Source of the DNA: Planctomycetaceae bacterium
GTDB lineage: Bacteria > Planctomycetota > Phycisphaerae > Phycisphaerales > SM1A02
NCBI GenBank assembly: GCA_947480055.1
Contig: CANKBX010000009.1
Span: 1 to 32,855, forward strand
DNA length: 32,855 nt
Direction of reading: 5' to 3'
The position numbers and the translations under genes are program-made. This document shows positions 1,887 to 17,425 of the stretch, piece after piece (position 1 is the first letter of the stretch; every line of letters starts with the position of its first letter). Under the pieces are notes generated by a model, which made no database searches, was not told the DNA's origin, and was given only the letters and a program-made list of their open reading frames with translations.

Positions 1887-3803
1887 CTATTTTTTGCCAA
1901 TCTCAGGCGATTGAGCGCGCAACGGCACGAGGCGATTTTCGGGCGCCAACCACCGCCATTGTGTGTGATACGTCTCATCATTATCCGCAACTCCCACGTT
2001 CACGGTTTGGGTGGACTCTGGAAGTTCCACTTCCAACCACCAACCAAGCGCGCCTTCAAGCGGCCCGGTGCGAGTTACGGGTTTCCAATCTTTACGACTT
2101 GCCGCGCTCCATGGCGAGAATGGTTCTATGAAATACCACGCCTCGCCTTTGTCGTCGGTCCAGCGGATTTCTACCGCGTCAGCGGCGGGATTTTTTCGAC
2201 GATCTTTCGTGTCGCGCTTGTCTGTGGCGTAACCACTTTGTGATTGGTCGGGGGTTTCAATGCGAAGCACGATTGATTGAGTTGGGTTGGCGGCTGGCTT
2301 ACTCAAGCGAACCGTTGGGTCGGCCTCCAACGTGTCATAGGGAGAGGGTTTCCATGAACAAATCAATAACTGTGCGGCGGGTTTGGCGGCGTCGACTGAA
2401 TACAACGCGACGCGATCCAGGTCCGGACGCAACTGCACATAGGTTGGAACAGTTCGTCCCTTCGTGTCCTTCATCTTGATCACGCACTCGATGGTTGGAG
2501 GCTGCGATGGAATTTTTGTGGCGACGCTTTTCAAAGTCAACGCAATGTCAACGGATCCCTTGGCGGGAACAACAACGCTCGCGGGCGCGTCGAGTGTCCA
2601 CGTGGTGTTGGCGTCGGTGGTGAATGGATTGAACGAGTCGATTGAAGTGCGGCTGACAAATTGCTCGCCATCAACAATCCAAGGGGTGGGATCGCGCGCG
2701 ATGGAAGTCGTGATTGCGATCGTTCGATCCAGCGGATTTGTAACTTTGAGAGTGACAACGCCACTGACCGACGTGGTTGCCATGAATGGATCAGGCAGCG
2801 CGCCCACGAGAGAAAGGCATCCTGGATTTTCACGCAGCGCGAACACGCAATCTTGATCTTCGCGCACCACAAAATCCTCCGGCAATGTCATGCCCACTGG
2901 TTGGTGGAAAATTTCCAACGCTCCATCGGGCGCGATTTGCACAAATGTGAGATGTTGCAGTTGGCCCGCAAGTGGGTGTTGATCAATCGCGCCGCCGCAC
3001 GTTCCAACCACCAAATATTTCACGCCGTCTTTGGCGGGATCGTCTTGCAAACTGTGCAAATGTCCCGCGATCACCGCCGACACTTTGGCTTTGACCAACA
3101 GCGGATGAATGCGCTCGAACCATTTCACGCTGTCATAGCGCCACAGTGGTCGATGCATCAAGATCATGATGGGTTTGCCGCGCGCCGCCGCGCGATCAAG
3201 CGAAGTGCGCAACCAATTTAATTGGCCATCGTTCACCTGCATCTTGCTGTCGCCAAGACCCTCGTCGGAGAACATGACAATGACGCTGGCTCCTTCAAGT
3301 TCCGCCATGTATTGCAGTGGACCAAATTGTTGCAGATACAAATCCGCAAATGTTCGGTCGCCAGGTTGGCGCGAACCGCTGATGACATCGTGATTGCCAG
3401 CGACGGGCAAGAATGGCGCGCTCAACTTTTCAGTGATCGATTTGTAGATCACGGCTTCCTTCTCCCACTCGGCGGGATCGCGGGTGTAGCCCTGAACCAT
3501 GTCGCCAACGGTGAAGACGGCGTCGGGCTGAATGCGATTCAGGTCGCGCACCGCGGCTTGCAGATATGGCAATCCCCAATCGCGGCCGGTGGTGCGGTCA
3601 GGAAGAATGGCGATGCGAAATGGACGATCGGGCATGGCCACTGGAACAACTTGTTGATCTATATATGGTTTGCCCTCGCGAATAAATGGCGGCGGAGTGG
3701 CGGACGCGTTGGCAACGCACACAGCGATTGCGAACAAGGTGAATGTATAGGCGCATGTCACGCTGATGGTGTTCAATAGTTGGCGAAAGAATTTCGTGAA
3801 CAT
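1887..3803 (-). CDS. Secreted calcineurin-like metallophosphoesterase
   Basis: From the ATG at 3803 the protein has 638 residues and begins with a hydrophobic signal segment ending near ANASA. Metallophosphoesterase motifs follow in order: PDRTTG (about 68-73), GDMV (about 100-103), GNHD (about 136-139), a HRPLW strand, then AGHLHS. These supply the usual bimetal ligands, although the first motif is D-R rather than the common D-x-H. The remaining roughly 350 residues are probably beta-rich, with no motif I recognise. The frame is open further upstream to 4049, but that would run into the DUF971 gene and lacks a signal peptide at its start. A TATTTT hexamer 5 nt before 3803 supports the chosen ATG. 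Likely a periplasmic or surface phosphoesterase; its substrate cannot be read from the sequence. Confidence 0.85.
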   Translation of the reverse strand: MFTKFFRQLLNTISVTCAYTFTLFAIAVCVANASATPPPFIREGKPYIDQQVVPVAMPDRPFRIAILPDRTTGRDWGLPYLQAAVRDLNRIQPDAVFTVGDMVQGYTRDPAEWEKEAVIYKSITEKLSAPFLPVAGNHDVISGSRQPGDRTFADLYLQQFGPLQYMAELEGASVIVMFSDEGLGDSKMQVNDGQLNWLRTSLDRAAARGKPIMILMHRPLWRYDSVKWFERIHPLLVKAKVSAVIAGHLHSLQDDPAKDGVKYLVVGTCGGAIDQHPLAGQLQHLTFVQIAPDGALEIFHQPVGMTLPEDFVVREDQDCVFALRENPGCLSLVGALPDPFMATTSVSGVVTLKVTNPLDRTIAITTSIARDPTPWIVDGEQFVSRTSIDSFNPFTTDANTTWTLDAPASVVVPAKGSVDIALTLKSVATKIPSQPPTIECVIKMKDTKGRTVPTYVQLRPDLDRVALYSVDAAKPAAQLLICSWKPSPYDTLEADPTVRLSKPAANPTQSIVLRIETPDQSQSGYATDKRDTKDRRKNPAADAVEIRWTDDKGEAWYFIEPFSPWSAASRKDWKPVTRTGPLEGALGWWLEVELPESTQTVNVGVADNDETYHTQWRWLAPENRLVPLRAQSPEIGKK

Positions 3804-3808
3804 ATTTG

Positions 3809-3814
3809 AAAATA
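3809..3814 (-). promoter_or_regulatory. Candidate -10 element of the metallophosphoesterase
   Basis: TATTTT on the minus strand, 5 nt before the ATG at 3803. No clear -35 is seen. It fits the leaderless pattern of the window. Confidence 0.4.
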
Positions 3815-3942
3815 GCACGAGCAATAGCTTGGGCACCAACGCGAGTCCGTCACGCGACAAAGTTGTGGTTTGCATGGCGAGATTTGTACCCGCACTTTGT
3901 TTGAAATGCGCTAACCATACTTGCCTTTGCAACTGCATCGAT

Positions 3943-4284
3943 TCAGGCTTGCGGCGCGCTGTCGGCAAGGGAGCGCAGATAAAGCCAGGAAAATAAACCC
4001 GTGTCGTGGCCGTCGGAAAATCGAATGCGCACGGCGTAATTACCCACAAGTTCCGCGGTTAAAGCGGAGAGTGGCTCCGAGGAGGAGTGCTTTAAAATAT
4101 GCAGCGGATTGGTGGACATGGATTCACGCTCTTGGCGGGCGTCTGCGCTTTGGCTCATGCGACGCAGCGTGACAACATCTATGAAACCCTTGCTTCCATC
4201 GCGCCATGTCACGGTGAGCCCCTTTGATTTTTCCAGGTGCAAAGACTGCGGCGGCGGTTCGGTTGGTTCGTTGGGCGAATTCAC
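3943..4284 (-). CDS. DUF971 (GBBH-like N-terminal domain) protein
   Basis: A protein of 113 residues from a GTG start. The central and C-terminal parts match the DUF971 / gamma-butyrobetaine hydroxylase-like N-terminal fold. The visible elements are a WRDGSKGFIDVVTLRR-type strand pair, a VGNYAVRIRFSDGHDTGLFSW segment (positions about 85-105), and a final YLRSLA. In eukaryotic gamma-butyrobetaine hydroxylase this domain sits before the catalytic part; stand-alone bacterial copies are poorly characterised and some have been linked to iron-sulfur proteins. The gene diverges from pyrF across 44 bp. A TACCAT hexamer 8 nt upstream supports the GTG. It lies 139 bp upstream of the metallophosphoesterase on the same strand. 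Confidence 0.8.
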   Translation of the reverse strand: MNSPNEPTEPPPQSLHLEKSKGLTVTWRDGSKGFIDVVTLRRMSQSADARQERESMSTNPLHILKHSSSEPLSALTAELVGNYAVRIRFSDGHDTGLFSWLYLRSLADSAPQA

Positions 4285-4292
4285 GGGCGCGC

Positions 4293-4298
4293 ATGGTA
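4293..4298 (-). promoter_or_regulatory. Candidate -10 element of the DUF971 gene
   Basis: TACCAT on the minus strand, 8 nt before the GTG at 4284. It lies where the -35 of the divergent pyrF promoter would be expected. Confidence 0.4.
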
Positions 4299-4316
4299 GA
4301 TGATTTGCCGCTCCTC

Positions 4317-4322
4317 TATGAT
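4317..4322 (+). promoter_or_regulatory. Candidate -10 element of pyrF
   Basis: TATGAT, five of six matches to TATAAT, exactly 6 nt before the ATG at 4329. Transcription would begin at or next to the start codon. This supports 4329 over the in-frame ATG codons at 4224 and 4293. Confidence 0.55.
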
Positions 4323-4328
4323 GGGCGC

Positions 4329-5207
4329 ATGGTCAAACACGATCACCCCGCGGATCTTCTAAATTCTTGGATCAAACTTCGCGGCGCCCCGGTGTGCGTT
4401 GGCATGGACCCGGTGTTTGAGCGGTTGCCGCCCGCGTGTCAAAAGCACGAGCCGGCGCAAGCATTTGAGTTGTGGGGAAAAACATTTCTTGATGCGATTG
4501 AGACGCATGTGCCTGCCGTAAAATTTCAGTCGGCGTGTTTTGAGCGCCACGGAGTCGCAGGCATGGCGGCGCTTGCGAAATTGCTGGCGCATGCGCATGG
4601 GAAATTCTTGGTGATCCTGGACGGCAAGCGCGGCGACATTGGAATCAGCGCCGAGCATTACGCCGCCGCCGTGACCGAGCATTTTCGCGCCGATTGGGTT
4701 ACGGCCAACGCGTATTTAGGCGTGGATGGTTTCTTGCCTTTTCTTCAGGCGGGTCTTGGCGTATTCGCGCTTGTGCGTACGAGCAATCCATCGGGAGATG
4801 TGGTGCAAGGCGAGCGATTGCATGATGGACGCACCGTTGCGCAGAGTGTGGCCGACGTGGTTGCGGACACTGGCTCGCGCTACATGGGCTCTTGCGGATT
4901 CAGCGCGCTTGGCGCGGTGGTTGGCGCCACCAAATCCCTCGACGCAGCGCAACTTCGACAACGCATGCCGCACTCGCCGTTTTTGGTGCCGGGCTACGGC
5001 GCGCAAGGGGGCGGCATCGCCGACGCAATGCGTTGTTTTATTCATGGTCGTGGGGCTTTGATCACCGCGAGCCGCTCCGTGATGCAGGCATTTGAAAATC
5101 GCGATGGCGATTGGTCGCAACACGTGGCGGAAGCCGCGAAATCGTTCGCGCATGAAATATCCTCAGGATTGCAAACCCATCTTCCAACTTCCGCAAATTC
5201 AGCATGA
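4329..5207 (+). CDS. pyrF: Orotidine 5'-phosphate decarboxylase, type 2
   Basis: Catalyses decarboxylation of orotidine 5'-phosphate to UMP, the last step of de novo pyrimidine synthesis, in the cytoplasm. The 292-residue product has an N-terminal VGMDP strand and the signature DGKRGDIG with the catalytic D98, K100 and D103. Length and spacing fit the type 2 (bacterial, about 270-300 residue) subfamily rather than the shorter type 1. Near the C-terminus a VPGYGAQGGG segment forms the phosphate-binding part of the barrel. The frame opens at 4224, but the homologous region starts just after the ATG at 4329, and a TATGAT hexamer 6 nt upstream supports it. The stop overlaps the next gene by ATGA at 5204-5207, so pyrF heads a multi-gene transcript. 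Confidence 0.95.
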   Translation: MVKHDHPADLLNSWIKLRGAPVCVGMDPVFERLPPACQKHEPAQAFELWGKTFLDAIETHVPAVKFQSACFERHGVAGMAALAKLLAHAHGKFLVILDGKRGDIGISAEHYAAAVTEHFRADWVTANAYLGVDGFLPFLQAGLGVFALVRTSNPSGDVVQGERLHDGRTVAQSVADVVADTGSRYMGSCGFSALGAVVGATKSLDAAQLRQRMPHSPFLVPGYGAQGGGIADAMRCFIHGRGALITASRSVMQAFENRDGDWSQHVAEAAKSFAHEISSGLQTHLPTSANSA

Positions 5208-6805
5208 ATCGAATCGCGCTGTTTGCCATAGCGTTTGCGGCGTTGTTGGCCACGCCATTGCTGCTGCGTTGGAGTGATTCGCCACGCACACAAATAGTTG
5301 CAAAGATTGGCGCTGCCACGCCGATGCGCGAGGTGGTGATTCTCACGCCAAGCAACGAGCAAATACGTATTGAATTCGGCCAGGCTTTCAGCGCGTGGCA
5401 TCAGAACAAATATGGCGAGCCCGCGGAAGTTGTATGGAGCACTCCGGGTGGCGCGGTTGAAATTCGCCGCATGCTTGTTTCAACATGGGAGTCGCGCCTG
5501 GCTCAAAATATTCCTGTGGGTGGCGACGCCGATTTAATTTTTGGCGGAGGCAGTTATGAATTTGACACGCTTAAAAAAGAAGTGACGGTCACCGTGGGCG
5601 CGGGGGCTGACGCAAAAAAATATTCGGCGACTATTTTGGAGCCGGTTCAATTGCCCGAGTCCGTGGTGATGGGCTGTTATGGAGTGGCTGAAATCGCGGG
5701 GCAAAATTTGTACGACCCCAAGGGCTATTGGTACGGAGTCGCGCTGTCGACTTTTGGAATTGTGATGAACTTGGATGTTCTTGACACGTTGCATGTCGAG
5801 CCATTGAAGTCGTGGAGCGATCTTGCGGATCCGCGTTTGTTTGGGTGGGTGAGCCTGGTGAATCCATCTCAATCTGGCAGCGTTTTGTCGGCGTTTGAAT
5901 CGATTTCGCAAAGAGTTGGCTGGCGCGATTCCATAGATATTTTGCGCCGCGCCGGCGCCAATGCCAGGGGATTTGCGGCCAGTGGTTCGCGTGTGCCAAT
6001 TGATGTTGCCAGTGGCGACGCGGCGGCTGGCGTGGCGATTGATTTTTATGCGCGATTTCAAATTCAATCCATGGTCGACGCCGCCATGCACGCGGGTCGC
6101 CAAGGCAGCGAACCCAAAGTTATTTTCACCGCGCCCGCGGGGCAAAGTTCGGTGGATCCGGACCCTATTGGAATGTTGCGCAATCCGCCGCACAAAGAGA
6201 CTGCGATTCGCTTCATGGAATTTTGCCTTTCAAAAGATGCGCAGCGTCTATGGCAATTGCGCGCTGGTGCTCCAGGTGGTCCGCGGCGATTTGAATTGCG
6301 CCGCATGCCAGTGATGCGTTCGCTCTACACCCAAGAGTTGCCGCAGTTCATTGATCAAGTGGATCCAATTGCAATCGCGACCGCGCCAATGTTTGATAAT
6401 CCAAGCATGCGCGCATTCACTCCGCTTTTATTTCAGACCATGGCTATGGATACGCACACGCAATTGCGGGCGGCGTGGAAAGCGATCTTGTCGCATCCCG
6501 CGTATCCCAAGAATAATTTTGGCGTGGTGCGCGCGTCCGATGTGGCCGACACGCAATTGAAAAGTTGGCTGGAAAAATTCGATGCGTTGCCCATGGTCGC
6601 AACTCCACATGGATATGTGGAACTCGCTGATATCAATCAACTCAAAAAACTTCGCGATGGTTGGTTCAAGGGCGAGTGGAAAGATCAAGGGCTTTGGCCC
6701 GAGCAAGGCGCGCCAGTCGACACGCTTCGACAAAAGTTTTTGCCATTTTTTAAGGAGAATTATCAGTGGATCGTGGATCAAGCGGCACAACAAAAATCGG
6801 CGTGA
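5204..6805 (+). CDS. ABC transporter family solute-binding protein (Fe3+/AfuA-like)
   Basis: A protein of 533 residues that begins with one hydrophobic segment (about residues 4-21), a signal peptide or membrane anchor. The following sequence has hallmarks of iron(III)- or phosphonate-type solute-binding proteins: a GGGSYEFD segment, a YWYGVALSTFGIVMN stretch and an ADPRLFGWVSLVNPSQSGS stretch, each matching the hinge-side motifs of the AfuA/FbpA group. It is longer than a typical FbpA (about 330-350 residues), and its C-terminal 150 residues have no motif I recognise. It overlaps pyrF by ATGA and cinA by 40 bp. No permease or ATPase of a transporter is nearby, so its transporter must be encoded elsewhere or it may act as a sensor. 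The ligand is not certain; iron is a guess from the family. Confidence 0.8.
   Translation: MNRIALFAIAFAALLATPLLLRWSDSPRTQIVAKIGAATPMREVVILTPSNEQIRIEFGQAFSAWHQNKYGEPAEVVWSTPGGAVEIRRMLVSTWESRLAQNIPVGGDADLIFGGGSYEFDTLKKEVTVTVGAGADAKKYSATILEPVQLPESVVMGCYGVAEIAGQNLYDPKGYWYGVALSTFGIVMNLDVLDTLHVEPLKSWSDLADPRLFGWVSLVNPSQSGSVLSAFESISQRVGWRDSIDILRRAGANARGFAASGSRVPIDVASGDAAAGVAIDFYARFQIQSMVDAAMHAGRQGSEPKVIFTAPAGQSSVDPDPIGMLRNPPHKETAIRFMEFCLSKDAQRLWQLRAGAPGGPRRFELRRMPVMRSLYTQELPQFIDQVDPIAIATAPMFDNPSMRAFTPLLFQTMAMDTHTQLRAAWKAILSHPAYPKNNFGVVRASDVADTQLKSWLEKFDALPMVATPHGYVELADINQLKKLRDGWFKGEWKDQGLWPEQGAPVDTLRQKFLPFFKENYQWIVDQAAQQKSA
6752..6757 (+). promoter_or_regulatory. Ribosome binding site of cinA
   Basis: AAGGAG, 8 nt before the GTG at 6766, embedded in the 3' end of the preceding gene. 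It decides the GTG start despite the 40-bp gene overlap. Confidence 0.75.
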
Positions 6806-15529: not shown

Positions 15530-16543
15530 TTAGTCCCGCACAACTTTCAGCGCGATCAAATCCTGAATGTCAATCAAGCCAATCGGTTTGCCATCGGTGT
15601 CAACCACGGGCAATTCATCCACGCGCAATTCGCGGATCATTCGCACCGCGTCGCGCACCAAGGATTGCGCGGGCAAGCAGCGCGGATGTTTGGTCATGCA
15701 ATCGGCGATTGGTTTTTCCAACGCGGCCGCGCCAAACTGGTTGATCAATCGGCGCACATCGCCATCGGTCAAGATGCCCGCAAGGCGTCCGTGGGAATCC
15801 ACAACCATCAACGCGCCCGATCGACGCCCATCACCGCAGGATTGCAGGGCGCTTTTCATGGTGGCGGTCAATGCAACGCATGTGAGATTCTTTCCCACTT
15901 GAAAGCGCAGTGCCTCGCTCACGGGTCGAAGTCCAATTCCCAGCATTCCGCCCGGGTGAATCTTGTGAAAGTCATCGGCCTTGAAATTGCGCCGGCGCGC
16001 CACGGCCAATGCCAACGCGTCGCCCGCGGCAAGCATGGTGGCGGTTGTGGCGGTGGGGGCCAAATTCAATGGACAGGCCTCCTCGATGTCGCCCAGCGAA
16101 ATATGCACAGTTGAAATCTTGGCCAGATTGGTTTGGGCGTGCTTGGAAATTGCAATTCCCGCCACGCCATCAGCCTTCAGGATCGCCGCGAAGTTGAGAA
16201 GTTCCTCAGTTTCACCGCTGTAGGAAAGCAGCAGAACCACATCGTTGGAGCGAATGCGACCCAAGTCGCCATGCACCGCCTCGGCGGGATGCACGAAATG
16301 ACTTGGCTGACCCAGGCTTGCGAAAGTTGCGGAAAGTTTGCTGCCAATCAATCCGGACTTTCCCATGCCGCTCACCACAACATGCCCGTCGCATGCGCAG
16401 ATTAAATCAATGGCCTTGGCAAAGTCCAACGAATCAGGACTGTTGTGTGAAACTCGAACGGCCAGGCGCGTGATGGCCTCGGCCTCGGATCGAAGCACAT
16501 CAGAAATAAATGTTGCCTCGTCGGTCGCCATCTTTTCGGTCAT
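15530..16543 (-). CDS. kdsD: Arabinose-5-phosphate isomerase (KdsD/KpsF family)
   Basis: Interconverts ribulose 5-phosphate and arabinose 5-phosphate, the first committed step to KDO for lipopolysaccharide. The 337-residue product has an N-terminal SIS domain with SGMGKSGLIGSKL, HPAEAVHGDLG and SYSGETEE, then two CBS domains (roughly residues 215-335) containing GILTDGDVRR and GLIDIQDLIALK. Length and order match the family. The frame runs up to 16615, but the ATG at 16543 is preferred: it fits the homologous start, and TATCAT lies 7 nt upstream. It diverges from scpA across 48 bp. Its presence implies an outer membrane with KDO-containing glycolipid. Confidence 0.93.
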   Translation of the reverse strand: MTEKMATDEATFISDVLRSEAEAITRLAVRVSHNSPDSLDFAKAIDLICACDGHVVVSGMGKSGLIGSKLSATFASLGQPSHFVHPAEAVHGDLGRIRSNDVVLLLSYSGETEELLNFAAILKADGVAGIAISKHAQTNLAKISTVHISLGDIEEACPLNLAPTATTATMLAAGDALALAVARRRNFKADDFHKIHPGGMLGIGLRPVSEALRFQVGKNLTCVALTATMKSALQSCGDGRRSGALMVVDSHGRLAGILTDGDVRRLINQFGAAALEKPIADCMTKHPRCLPAQSLVRDAVRMIRELRVDELPVVDTDGKPIGLIDIQDLIALKVVRD

Positions 16544-16550
16544 GCACAAA

Positions 16551-16556
16551 ATGATA
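16551..16556 (-). promoter_or_regulatory. Candidate -10 element of kdsD
   Basis: TATCAT on the minus strand, five of six matches to TATAAT, 7 nt before the ATG at 16543. Confidence 0.5.
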
Positions 16557-16579
16557 GCGAAAACAAACGATGATTTTGG

Positions 16580-16585
16580 TACAGT
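16580..16585 (+). promoter_or_regulatory. Candidate -10 element of scpA
   Basis: TACAGT, exactly 6 nt before the GTG at 16592. It favours this GTG over the TTG at 16586. Confidence 0.45.
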
Positions 16586-16591
16586 TTGCCC

Positions 16592-17425
16592 GTGGCAATC
16601 CTTGACGAATATCAAGTCAAACTTTCGGCATTTGAAGGCCCGCTTGATCTTCTTTTGTTTTTAATCAGGCGCTCGGAAGTTGATATCCACGATATTCCAA
16701 TCGCGGCCATCACAACCCAATATCTTGACGTGCTCAAGACAACCGACGAGATGGATGTGGAGCAAGCGGGCGAATTTCTAGTGCTCGCGGCCACGTTGGT
16801 GGAAATGAAAAGCCGAATGCTTTCGCCCAAGCCGGAGCATGACGAGGCGCAGATTCTTCCGGATGCTTCTTTGCACGAGGATCCGCGGCGTGAATTGGTG
16901 CAACAACTCTTGGCGTACCAGCGCTTTCGAACAGCCGCGGAAACGCTTGATTCGCTGCGCGATGAATTTTCAAAACGGTGGACGGCATCCGGTGTGGCCG
17001 GTGAAGTTCCCGCGGTTGATGGCGAAGCCACCACTGTTGAAGATGTGCAGGATCTTGACATAGGCGATGTGCATTTGCTGGATTTGCTCGAGGCCTTTGA
17101 GCGCATCACGCTTGCGGTGGATTTCACGCGCCTTGGAAATCACCAAGTCACTTTCGATGACACGCCGATTGGTTTGCATCAAGATGATCTTGTCGATCGA
17201 TTGGGTCGCTCGCCTGAGCGTCGCATGCGACTCGACGCCATCTTCGAAGGGCGAAATCGCATGGATCGAATTGGTTTGTTCTTGGCGTTGCTTGAATTGG
17301 CGCGAGAGCAACGCATTCGTGTTCGGCAAGCGCAAGCCAATGAGCCAATCGAGTTGGAATTGGTCGATGTCAGCGCCGCGCCAGCCACAATGTCCGTTGG
17401 GAATTCTTCAACCGCCGCCGAGTGA
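16592..17425 (+). CDS. scpA: Segregation and condensation protein A
   Basis: The kleisin subunit of the bacterial SMC-ScpA-ScpB condensin. The product of 277 residues begins with the family's N-terminal signature, a QVKLSAFEGPLDLLLFLI stretch, then VDIHDIPIAAITTQYL. After an acidic, variable middle it ends with a winged-helix part containing FLALLELARE near residue 235. This is the normal length and order. No scpB or smc gene is in the window. The start is the GTG at 16592, 6 nt after TACAGT; no Shine-Dalgarno site is seen. It converges on dacB with a small overlap at 17408-17425. Confidence 0.93.
   Translation: MAILDEYQVKLSAFEGPLDLLLFLIRRSEVDIHDIPIAAITTQYLDVLKTTDEMDVEQAGEFLVLAATLVEMKSRMLSPKPEHDEAQILPDASLHEDPRRELVQQLLAYQRFRTAAETLDSLRDEFSKRWTASGVAGEVPAVDGEATTVEDVQDLDIGDVHLLDLLEAFERITLAVDFTRLGNHQVTFDDTPIGLHQDDLVDRLGRSPERRMRLDAIFEGRNRMDRIGLFLALLELAREQRIRVRQAQANEPIELELVDVSAAPATMSVGNSSTAAE

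Follow-up and report, generated by a model that had tools for sequence, protein, structure and literature searches.

Two probable leaderless or nearly leaderless promoters, each a −10 box without a −35 element, in the 44-bp spacer between a DUF971 gene and pyrF of a planctomycete

The window analysed here is a stretch of 32,855 nucleotides that makes up a whole contig (C9) of a planctomycete genome, in which a DUF971-type gene and pyrF diverge from a common spacer (Table 1). This spacer probably holds two separate promoters, each consisting of a −10 box only and serving a leaderless or nearly leaderless gene, and their overlap at 18 bp is probably incidental to contraction of the spacer and not a conserved switch. 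The box positions, their conservation, the genome-wide peak in box distance and the variation of the gap between boxes were all read from sequence. The first gene was assigned to PF06155, of which we take DUF971 to be the older name.

Table 1. Features of the DUF971/pyrF locus (positions in the window)
Feature	Coordinates	Strand	Evidence
DUF971-type gene, 113 aa, GTG start at 4284	3943..4284	-	Pfam PF06155, GBBH-like_N, E 2.3e-18
pyrF, orotidine 5'-phosphate decarboxylase, 292 aa, ATG start at 4329	4329..5207	+	Pfam PF00215, E 3.4e-19
Divergent spacer with both predicted promoters, 44 bp	4285..4328	.	Sequence, relatives
DUF971 predicted −10 box TACCAT, end 8 nt before GTG	4293..4298	-	Genus conservation; invariant in 7-genome alignment
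pyrF predicted −10 box TATGAT, end 6 nt before ATG	4317..4322	+	Genus conservation; genome-wide 6-nt peak

The minus-strand TACCAT (ATGGTA on the plus strand) and the plus-strand TATGAT are separated by 18 bp (4299-4316). Both hexamers were found where an earlier note on this DNA had placed them (4293-4298 and 4317-4322), with the separation that it gave; its further statement that each box stands in the −35 slot of the other is exact at a spacing of 18 bp and off by one at the 17 bp that it claimed. To estimate chance, the nucleotides of the 44-bp spacer were shuffled singly 200,000 times. A TANNNT hexamer 6-7 nt before pyrF combined with one 6-10 nt before DUF971 had a chance of 0.00026, and two TANNNT hexamers placed back to back anywhere in the spacer, 17-19 bp from each other, had a chance of 0.0011. 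The pyrF ATG at 4329 is common to the window's genus, and two genus genomes (G003 and G014) have an ATG in the same place as the DUF971 GTG. By pyrF, the closest named records were uncultured bins, with 98% identity to one titled 'uncultured bacterium', 97% to a Planctomycetia bacterium and 82% to a Phycisphaerales bacterium.

Distances between TANNNT and candidate starts were counted over 21 stretches of the same genome (296 open frames ≥ 450 nt, 1413 candidate ATG/GTG starts). Here, and in the counts below on the 72 starts, the 189 divergent pairs and the sets of 80 and 29 loci, starts were taken mechanically from the open frames using only ATG and GTG, so that some of the counted starts are wrong. 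TANNNT was found 6 nt before 38 per 1000 candidate starts and 7 nt before 13 per 1000, with 1-9 per 1000 at the remaining distances from 0 to 30 nt, and 72 of the 296 frames had a box at 6-7 nt. Internal in-frame starts gave 0 to 6 per 1000 over all distances and 1 per 1000 at 6 nt. At 8 nt, which is the distance of the DUF971 box, the count was 7 per 1000, a background level. The same count over 400 kb of another genus genome (G014) peaked at 23 per 1000, with 0 to 9 at other distances.

Such a peak is the TA-like signal taken by Zheng et al. 2011 (PMC3160421) to mark leaderless genes. In the portion of that paper available to us, TA-led leaderless genes carry a TANNNT whose first T lies about 12 bp ahead of the start codon and which is interpreted as the −10 box of a leader-free message, and the term 'planctomycet' was not found. 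pyrF is like these genes, its TATGAT beginning at 4317, exactly 12 bp before 4329, and the first T lies 12-13 bp before its start in 16 of 16 genus genomes. The DUF971 box stands 2 nt further out, with the first T 14 bp before the start here and 12-16 bp in the genus, compared with a genome peak at 12-13 bp; the 8-nt box distance would agree with a leader some 2 nt long. A survey including one planctomycete (PMC5397173) places the phylum with those that have few Shine-Dalgarno genes and a bias suggestive of leaderless and/or S1-dependent initiation. A Shine-Dalgarno sequence for DUF971 was considered and rejected, given that the minus-strand GAGGAG, 26 nt from the GTG, is too far away. Both genes look leaderless, which the earlier note had missed, and this would explain how the spacer can be so short. 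Weighing against the leaderless reading, the DUF971 box at 8 nt is off the 6-7 nt peak, and both boxes are without the upstream G described below.

A scan for paired −35/−10 hexamers from 3000 to 6000 found none, with 1.4 expected. The −35 slots at 18 bp contain ATGGTA and ATCATA, each with 3/6 matches to TTGACA, and those at 17 bp have 2/6 and 1/6 (all counted by eye). When TTGACA was sought at spacers of 16-18 bp from the 72 leaderless-like starts of the window's genome, there was no clear enrichment (mean best match 2.47, versus 2.29 and 2.43 at shifted positions); the 35 leaderless-like starts of G014 gave 2.69, versus 2.63 and 2.31. Based upon the scan and the lack of clear enrichment upstream of leaderless-like starts, a −35 element was rejected for either box. 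If neither a leader nor a −35 element is required, 44 bp would be enough room between the two divergent genes.

Of the 72 leaderless-like starts (window and L063-L082), 62% had a G two bases upstream of the box, as did 57% of the 35 in G014. This preference, occurring without a −35 element, may be a planctomycete form of an extended −10. At the locus itself an extended −10 was rejected, as the enriched G is missing two bases upstream of both boxes. A regulon motif was also rejected, because the 14-mer around the DUF971 box was found just once per genome in seven genus genomes and the g19 15-mer described below just once per genome in 12 (181 genomes searched each time). G116 has a further single copy of the 14-mer, which is not on the contig that carries its pyrF among the matches listed.

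In the window's genus, TANNNT was kept before both genes in all 16 genomes, at 6-7 nt from the pyrF start and at 6-10 nt from that of DUF971 (6 nt in G014, G001 and G007). The variants were TATGAT, TATCAT, TAGCAT, TAGGAT and TAGAAT for pyrF, and TACCAT, TAGGAT, TACGAT and TAGCAT for DUF971. The middle letters vary and TANNNT is kept, as expected of a −10 box; both hexamers behave like the −10 boxes that the earlier note had proposed.

The gap between the boxes varied across these same genomes. It was 10 bp in G007, 11 bp in G001, 18 bp in G000, G002 and G011, 19 bp in G005, G015, G008 and G012, 27 bp in G004 and G010, and 69, 85, 90, 98 and 100 bp in G014, G003, G006, G009 and G013, respectively. 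In the last five, neither box lies in the −35 slot of the other. An alignment of seven spacers had an invariant DUF971 box and retained the two ends of the spacer; the short forms lacked its central part. A tree was built from pyrF alone using 15 of the 16 genus genomes and two others (G012 was left out as its pyrF is split, and G003 was represented by one of its two pyrF pieces). The 18-bp-gap genomes were placed beside G006 (gap 90 bp; support 87/84) and G005/G015 beside genomes with gaps of 85-100 bp (support 99/97), and the gap changed between short and long at least three times on the 17 rows. Placing G000, G002, G011, G005 and G015 in one clade was rejected (AU p = 5.6e-5), a p value that is valid for a group named beforehand, and these five short-gap genomes were chosen by gap after the tree was seen. 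We infer that short gaps came from contraction and not growth, two directions that the tree cannot distinguish.

Given that the distance between the two retained promoters differs so widely among close relatives, the exact closeness in the window looks incidental. When conservation of the spacer in relatives was checked, as the earlier note had suggested, the two boxes were kept genus-wide and the distance between them was not. With gaps that run from 10 to 100 bp, the mutually exclusive expression proposed by the note finds no support as the purpose of the arrangement or as a trait under selection in the genus.

Under the reading of two separate −10-only promoters, the box would set the transcription start of pyrF at its start codon and that of DUF971 within about 2 nt of its own. 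With 18 bp between the boxes, a polymerase bound at either would hide its counterpart, and initiation would consequently alternate. Exclusion at this distance is plausible as a matter of geometry, from general knowledge of polymerase footprints. Both genes would still be expressed, even in one cell, with polymerases taking turns, and 'mutually exclusive' would describe polymerase binding at any instant and not expression. The 18-bp distance would be an accident of spacer contraction and not a conserved switch.

It is unlikely, in our estimate, that the overlap is instead a selected device by which the promoters compete for polymerase and the outputs of DUF971 and pyrF become reciprocal or keep a fixed ratio. 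Steady box distances argue for such a device and against an incidental origin. A gap of 18-19 bp is found in three genus lineages (G000/G002/G011, G005/G015 and G008/G012), at least two of which are separate on the pyrF tree, and from this sharing the distance could be favoured. In genus g19 of the same family, all 12 genomes that have pyrF among the matches listed had a gap of exactly 1 bp. Its DUF971/pyrF junction is an almost invariant 15-mer, GATT[C/T]TACTATGATG (L243-L254), composed of a minus-strand TAGAAT (TAAAAT in one genome), one base and a plus-strand TATGAT, in a spacer of 26-27 bp between start codons. A search of 181 family genomes found the 15-mer once per genome in these 12 and nowhere in the remaining 169; G096, the thirteenth g19 genome, was without it and had no pyrF match among the matches listed. 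The 12 spacers match pyrF loci by sequence, with pyrF identity down to 54-60% in some pairs, and one of them (L248, with the same spacer as L180) had no ATG/GTG at the usual DUF971 start. This geometry makes competition at one site more credible in g19, and the idea of the earlier note is stronger there. The gap was also steady in g14 (29-30 bp in three of four loci, none scored in the fourth) and in g56 (41-42 bp in four of four loci). Some genera thus hold the two boxes at a set distance, which the window's own genus does not.

Evidence against a selected device comes from the five of 16 genus genomes with gaps of 69-100 bp, which keep both boxes, and from how often the pairing itself is absent. 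Among 61 genomes, pyrF was found in 60 and PF06155 in 59. Of the 59 genomes with both genes, 43 had them as divergent neighbours less than about 300 bp apart and one (G044) at about 1.26 kb; in 15 (family and order) they were not found as divergent neighbours, some being on separate contigs. At 60 further loci from twelve other family genera, DUF971 was divergent and ≤ 700 bp upstream of pyrF in 29, and the remaining 31 had no divergent DUF971 within 700 bp (for one of the 31, the contig ended within the locus). In genera g41, g18 and g54, no DUF971 was found ≤ 700 bp upstream of pyrF in 18, 4 and 8 genomes, respectively (L260-L277, L280-L283 and L292-L299), and the pairing is absent in these three genera.

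A further explanation is that the spacer holds a promoter at the predicted place for pyrF only, that TACCAT is a coincidental match and that DUF971 is transcribed from a different sequence, inside the spacer or outside it. The 8-nt distance of this box from the GTG, off the genome-wide peak, agrees with that explanation, as does its match of 4/6 to TATAAT. We nevertheless consider it improbable, because a TANNNT with varied middle letters precedes DUF971 by 6-10 nt in all 16 genus genomes and because of the counts over 80 unique divergent loci. These loci were compiled from two overlapping sources and deduplicated by spacer sequence only, after dropping loci that lacked a match for both genes or had > 1500 bp between matches. 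TANNNT at 6-7 nt was present for pyrF in 43 of these loci, for DUF971 in 33 and for both in 19, versus 0-7 in seven two-position control windows from 12 to 25 nt. The windows in between gave 7 for pyrF and 17 for DUF971 at 8-9 nt, and 13 and 6 at 10-11 nt; the 17 for DUF971 and the 13 for pyrF weigh against the preferred reading. In 29 further divergent loci, TANNNT at 6-7 nt was found for pyrF in 10 and for DUF971 in 17, versus 0-3 in five shifted windows.

Translation of pyrF from an in-frame ATG at 4293, which would make TATGAT coding and leave a spacer of just 8 bp, is hardly credible: an in-frame ATG is present 36 nt upstream in G000, G002 and G011, but in G009 the preceding sequence, followed as far as the first stop or for 150 nt, contains no other in-frame start, the upstream in-frame starts of other genomes are elsewhere and the ATG at 4329 is the shared one, and in long-spacer relatives the same ATG block adjoins DUF971, about 100 bp from pyrF. 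This in-frame ATG (4293-4295), which is not genus-wide, could make a gene caller extend pyrF through the promoter.

Similar pairs were sought among 189 divergent pairs in 1.34 Mb of the window's genome. TANNNT was present at 6-7 nt on both sides in 20 of them, whereas four shifted two-position windows gave no such pair among the 189; five-position windows gave 32 pairs (5-9 nt), versus 1 and 6 when shifted. The single-side rate of 109/378 predicts about 16 doubles, so the 20 observed are no strong excess. A fixed genome-wide spacing rule was rejected, with gaps in the 20 pairs running from −2 to 597 bp and eight at ≤ 30 bp. The 20 do not include the DUF971/pyrF pair, whose DUF971 box has a distance of 8 nt. 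The list for 5-9 nt lacks this pair as well, probably owing to a longer mechanical frame that overlaps the short frame of DUF971. The window itself contains a second pair (16541-16594), formed by a SIS/CBS-domain gene (minus strand, ATG 16543) and scpA (plus strand, GTG 16592). Their boxes, a minus-strand TATCAT at 16551-16556 (7 nt from the start) and a plus-strand TACAGT at 16580-16585 (6 nt from the start), are 23 bp apart.

The arrangement was compared with two known systems. In the bidirectional class, the −10 elements of the two strands overlap each other and the start sites are 7-25 bp apart, mostly 18 (PMC10268837, PMC12825309). The spacer in the window is like these Warman-type promoters in its divergent initiation from a very short stretch, and there the binding of one polymerase blocks the other. 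It is unlike them in that its boxes do not overlap and, being 18 bp apart, give predicted start sites about 43-45 bp apart, which places it outside the Warman-type definition; the 18 bp here is the gap between boxes, whereas the published 18 is a distance between start sites and another quantity (PMC10268837, PMC12825309). One shared bidirectional site, which the earlier note offered as an alternative, is not supported in the window's genus. For g19 the predicted distance between start sites is about 27-28 bp, slightly more than the 7-25 bp of the class (PMC10268837). The EcoRV control region has two divergent promoters with partly overlapping polymerase sites, from which no simultaneous starts occur (PMC5333194). 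The promoter distance here would fit overlapping polymerase sites; EcoRV differs in having a controller protein and a C transcript that is not leaderless (PMC5333194), whereas here there is no evident regulator and the genus does not preserve the overlap. Among the matches listed for leaderless and divergent promoters, planctomycete start sites and DUF971, with few subscription journals covered and the sources available in part, the arrangement was undescribed.

A more speculative history, possible though on balance doubtful, is that DUF971/pyrF descends from an old minimal bidirectional leaderless region made of two −10 boxes and two start codons. It would have been locked at 1 bp in g19, where one polymerase site would serve both genes by competition, and would have loosened and tightened repeatedly in the window's genus, where at 18 bp the promoters would again compete and tie pyrimidine synthesis to DUF971.

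If the preferred reading of two separate leaderless or nearly leaderless promoters is correct, leaderless genes let divergent neighbours fit both of their promoters into a few dozen bases. Collision between polymerases would then be routine in such genomes and would need no special switch. The g19 15-mer, set against the variable gaps of the window's genus, offers a natural experiment on whether such competition is ever selected.
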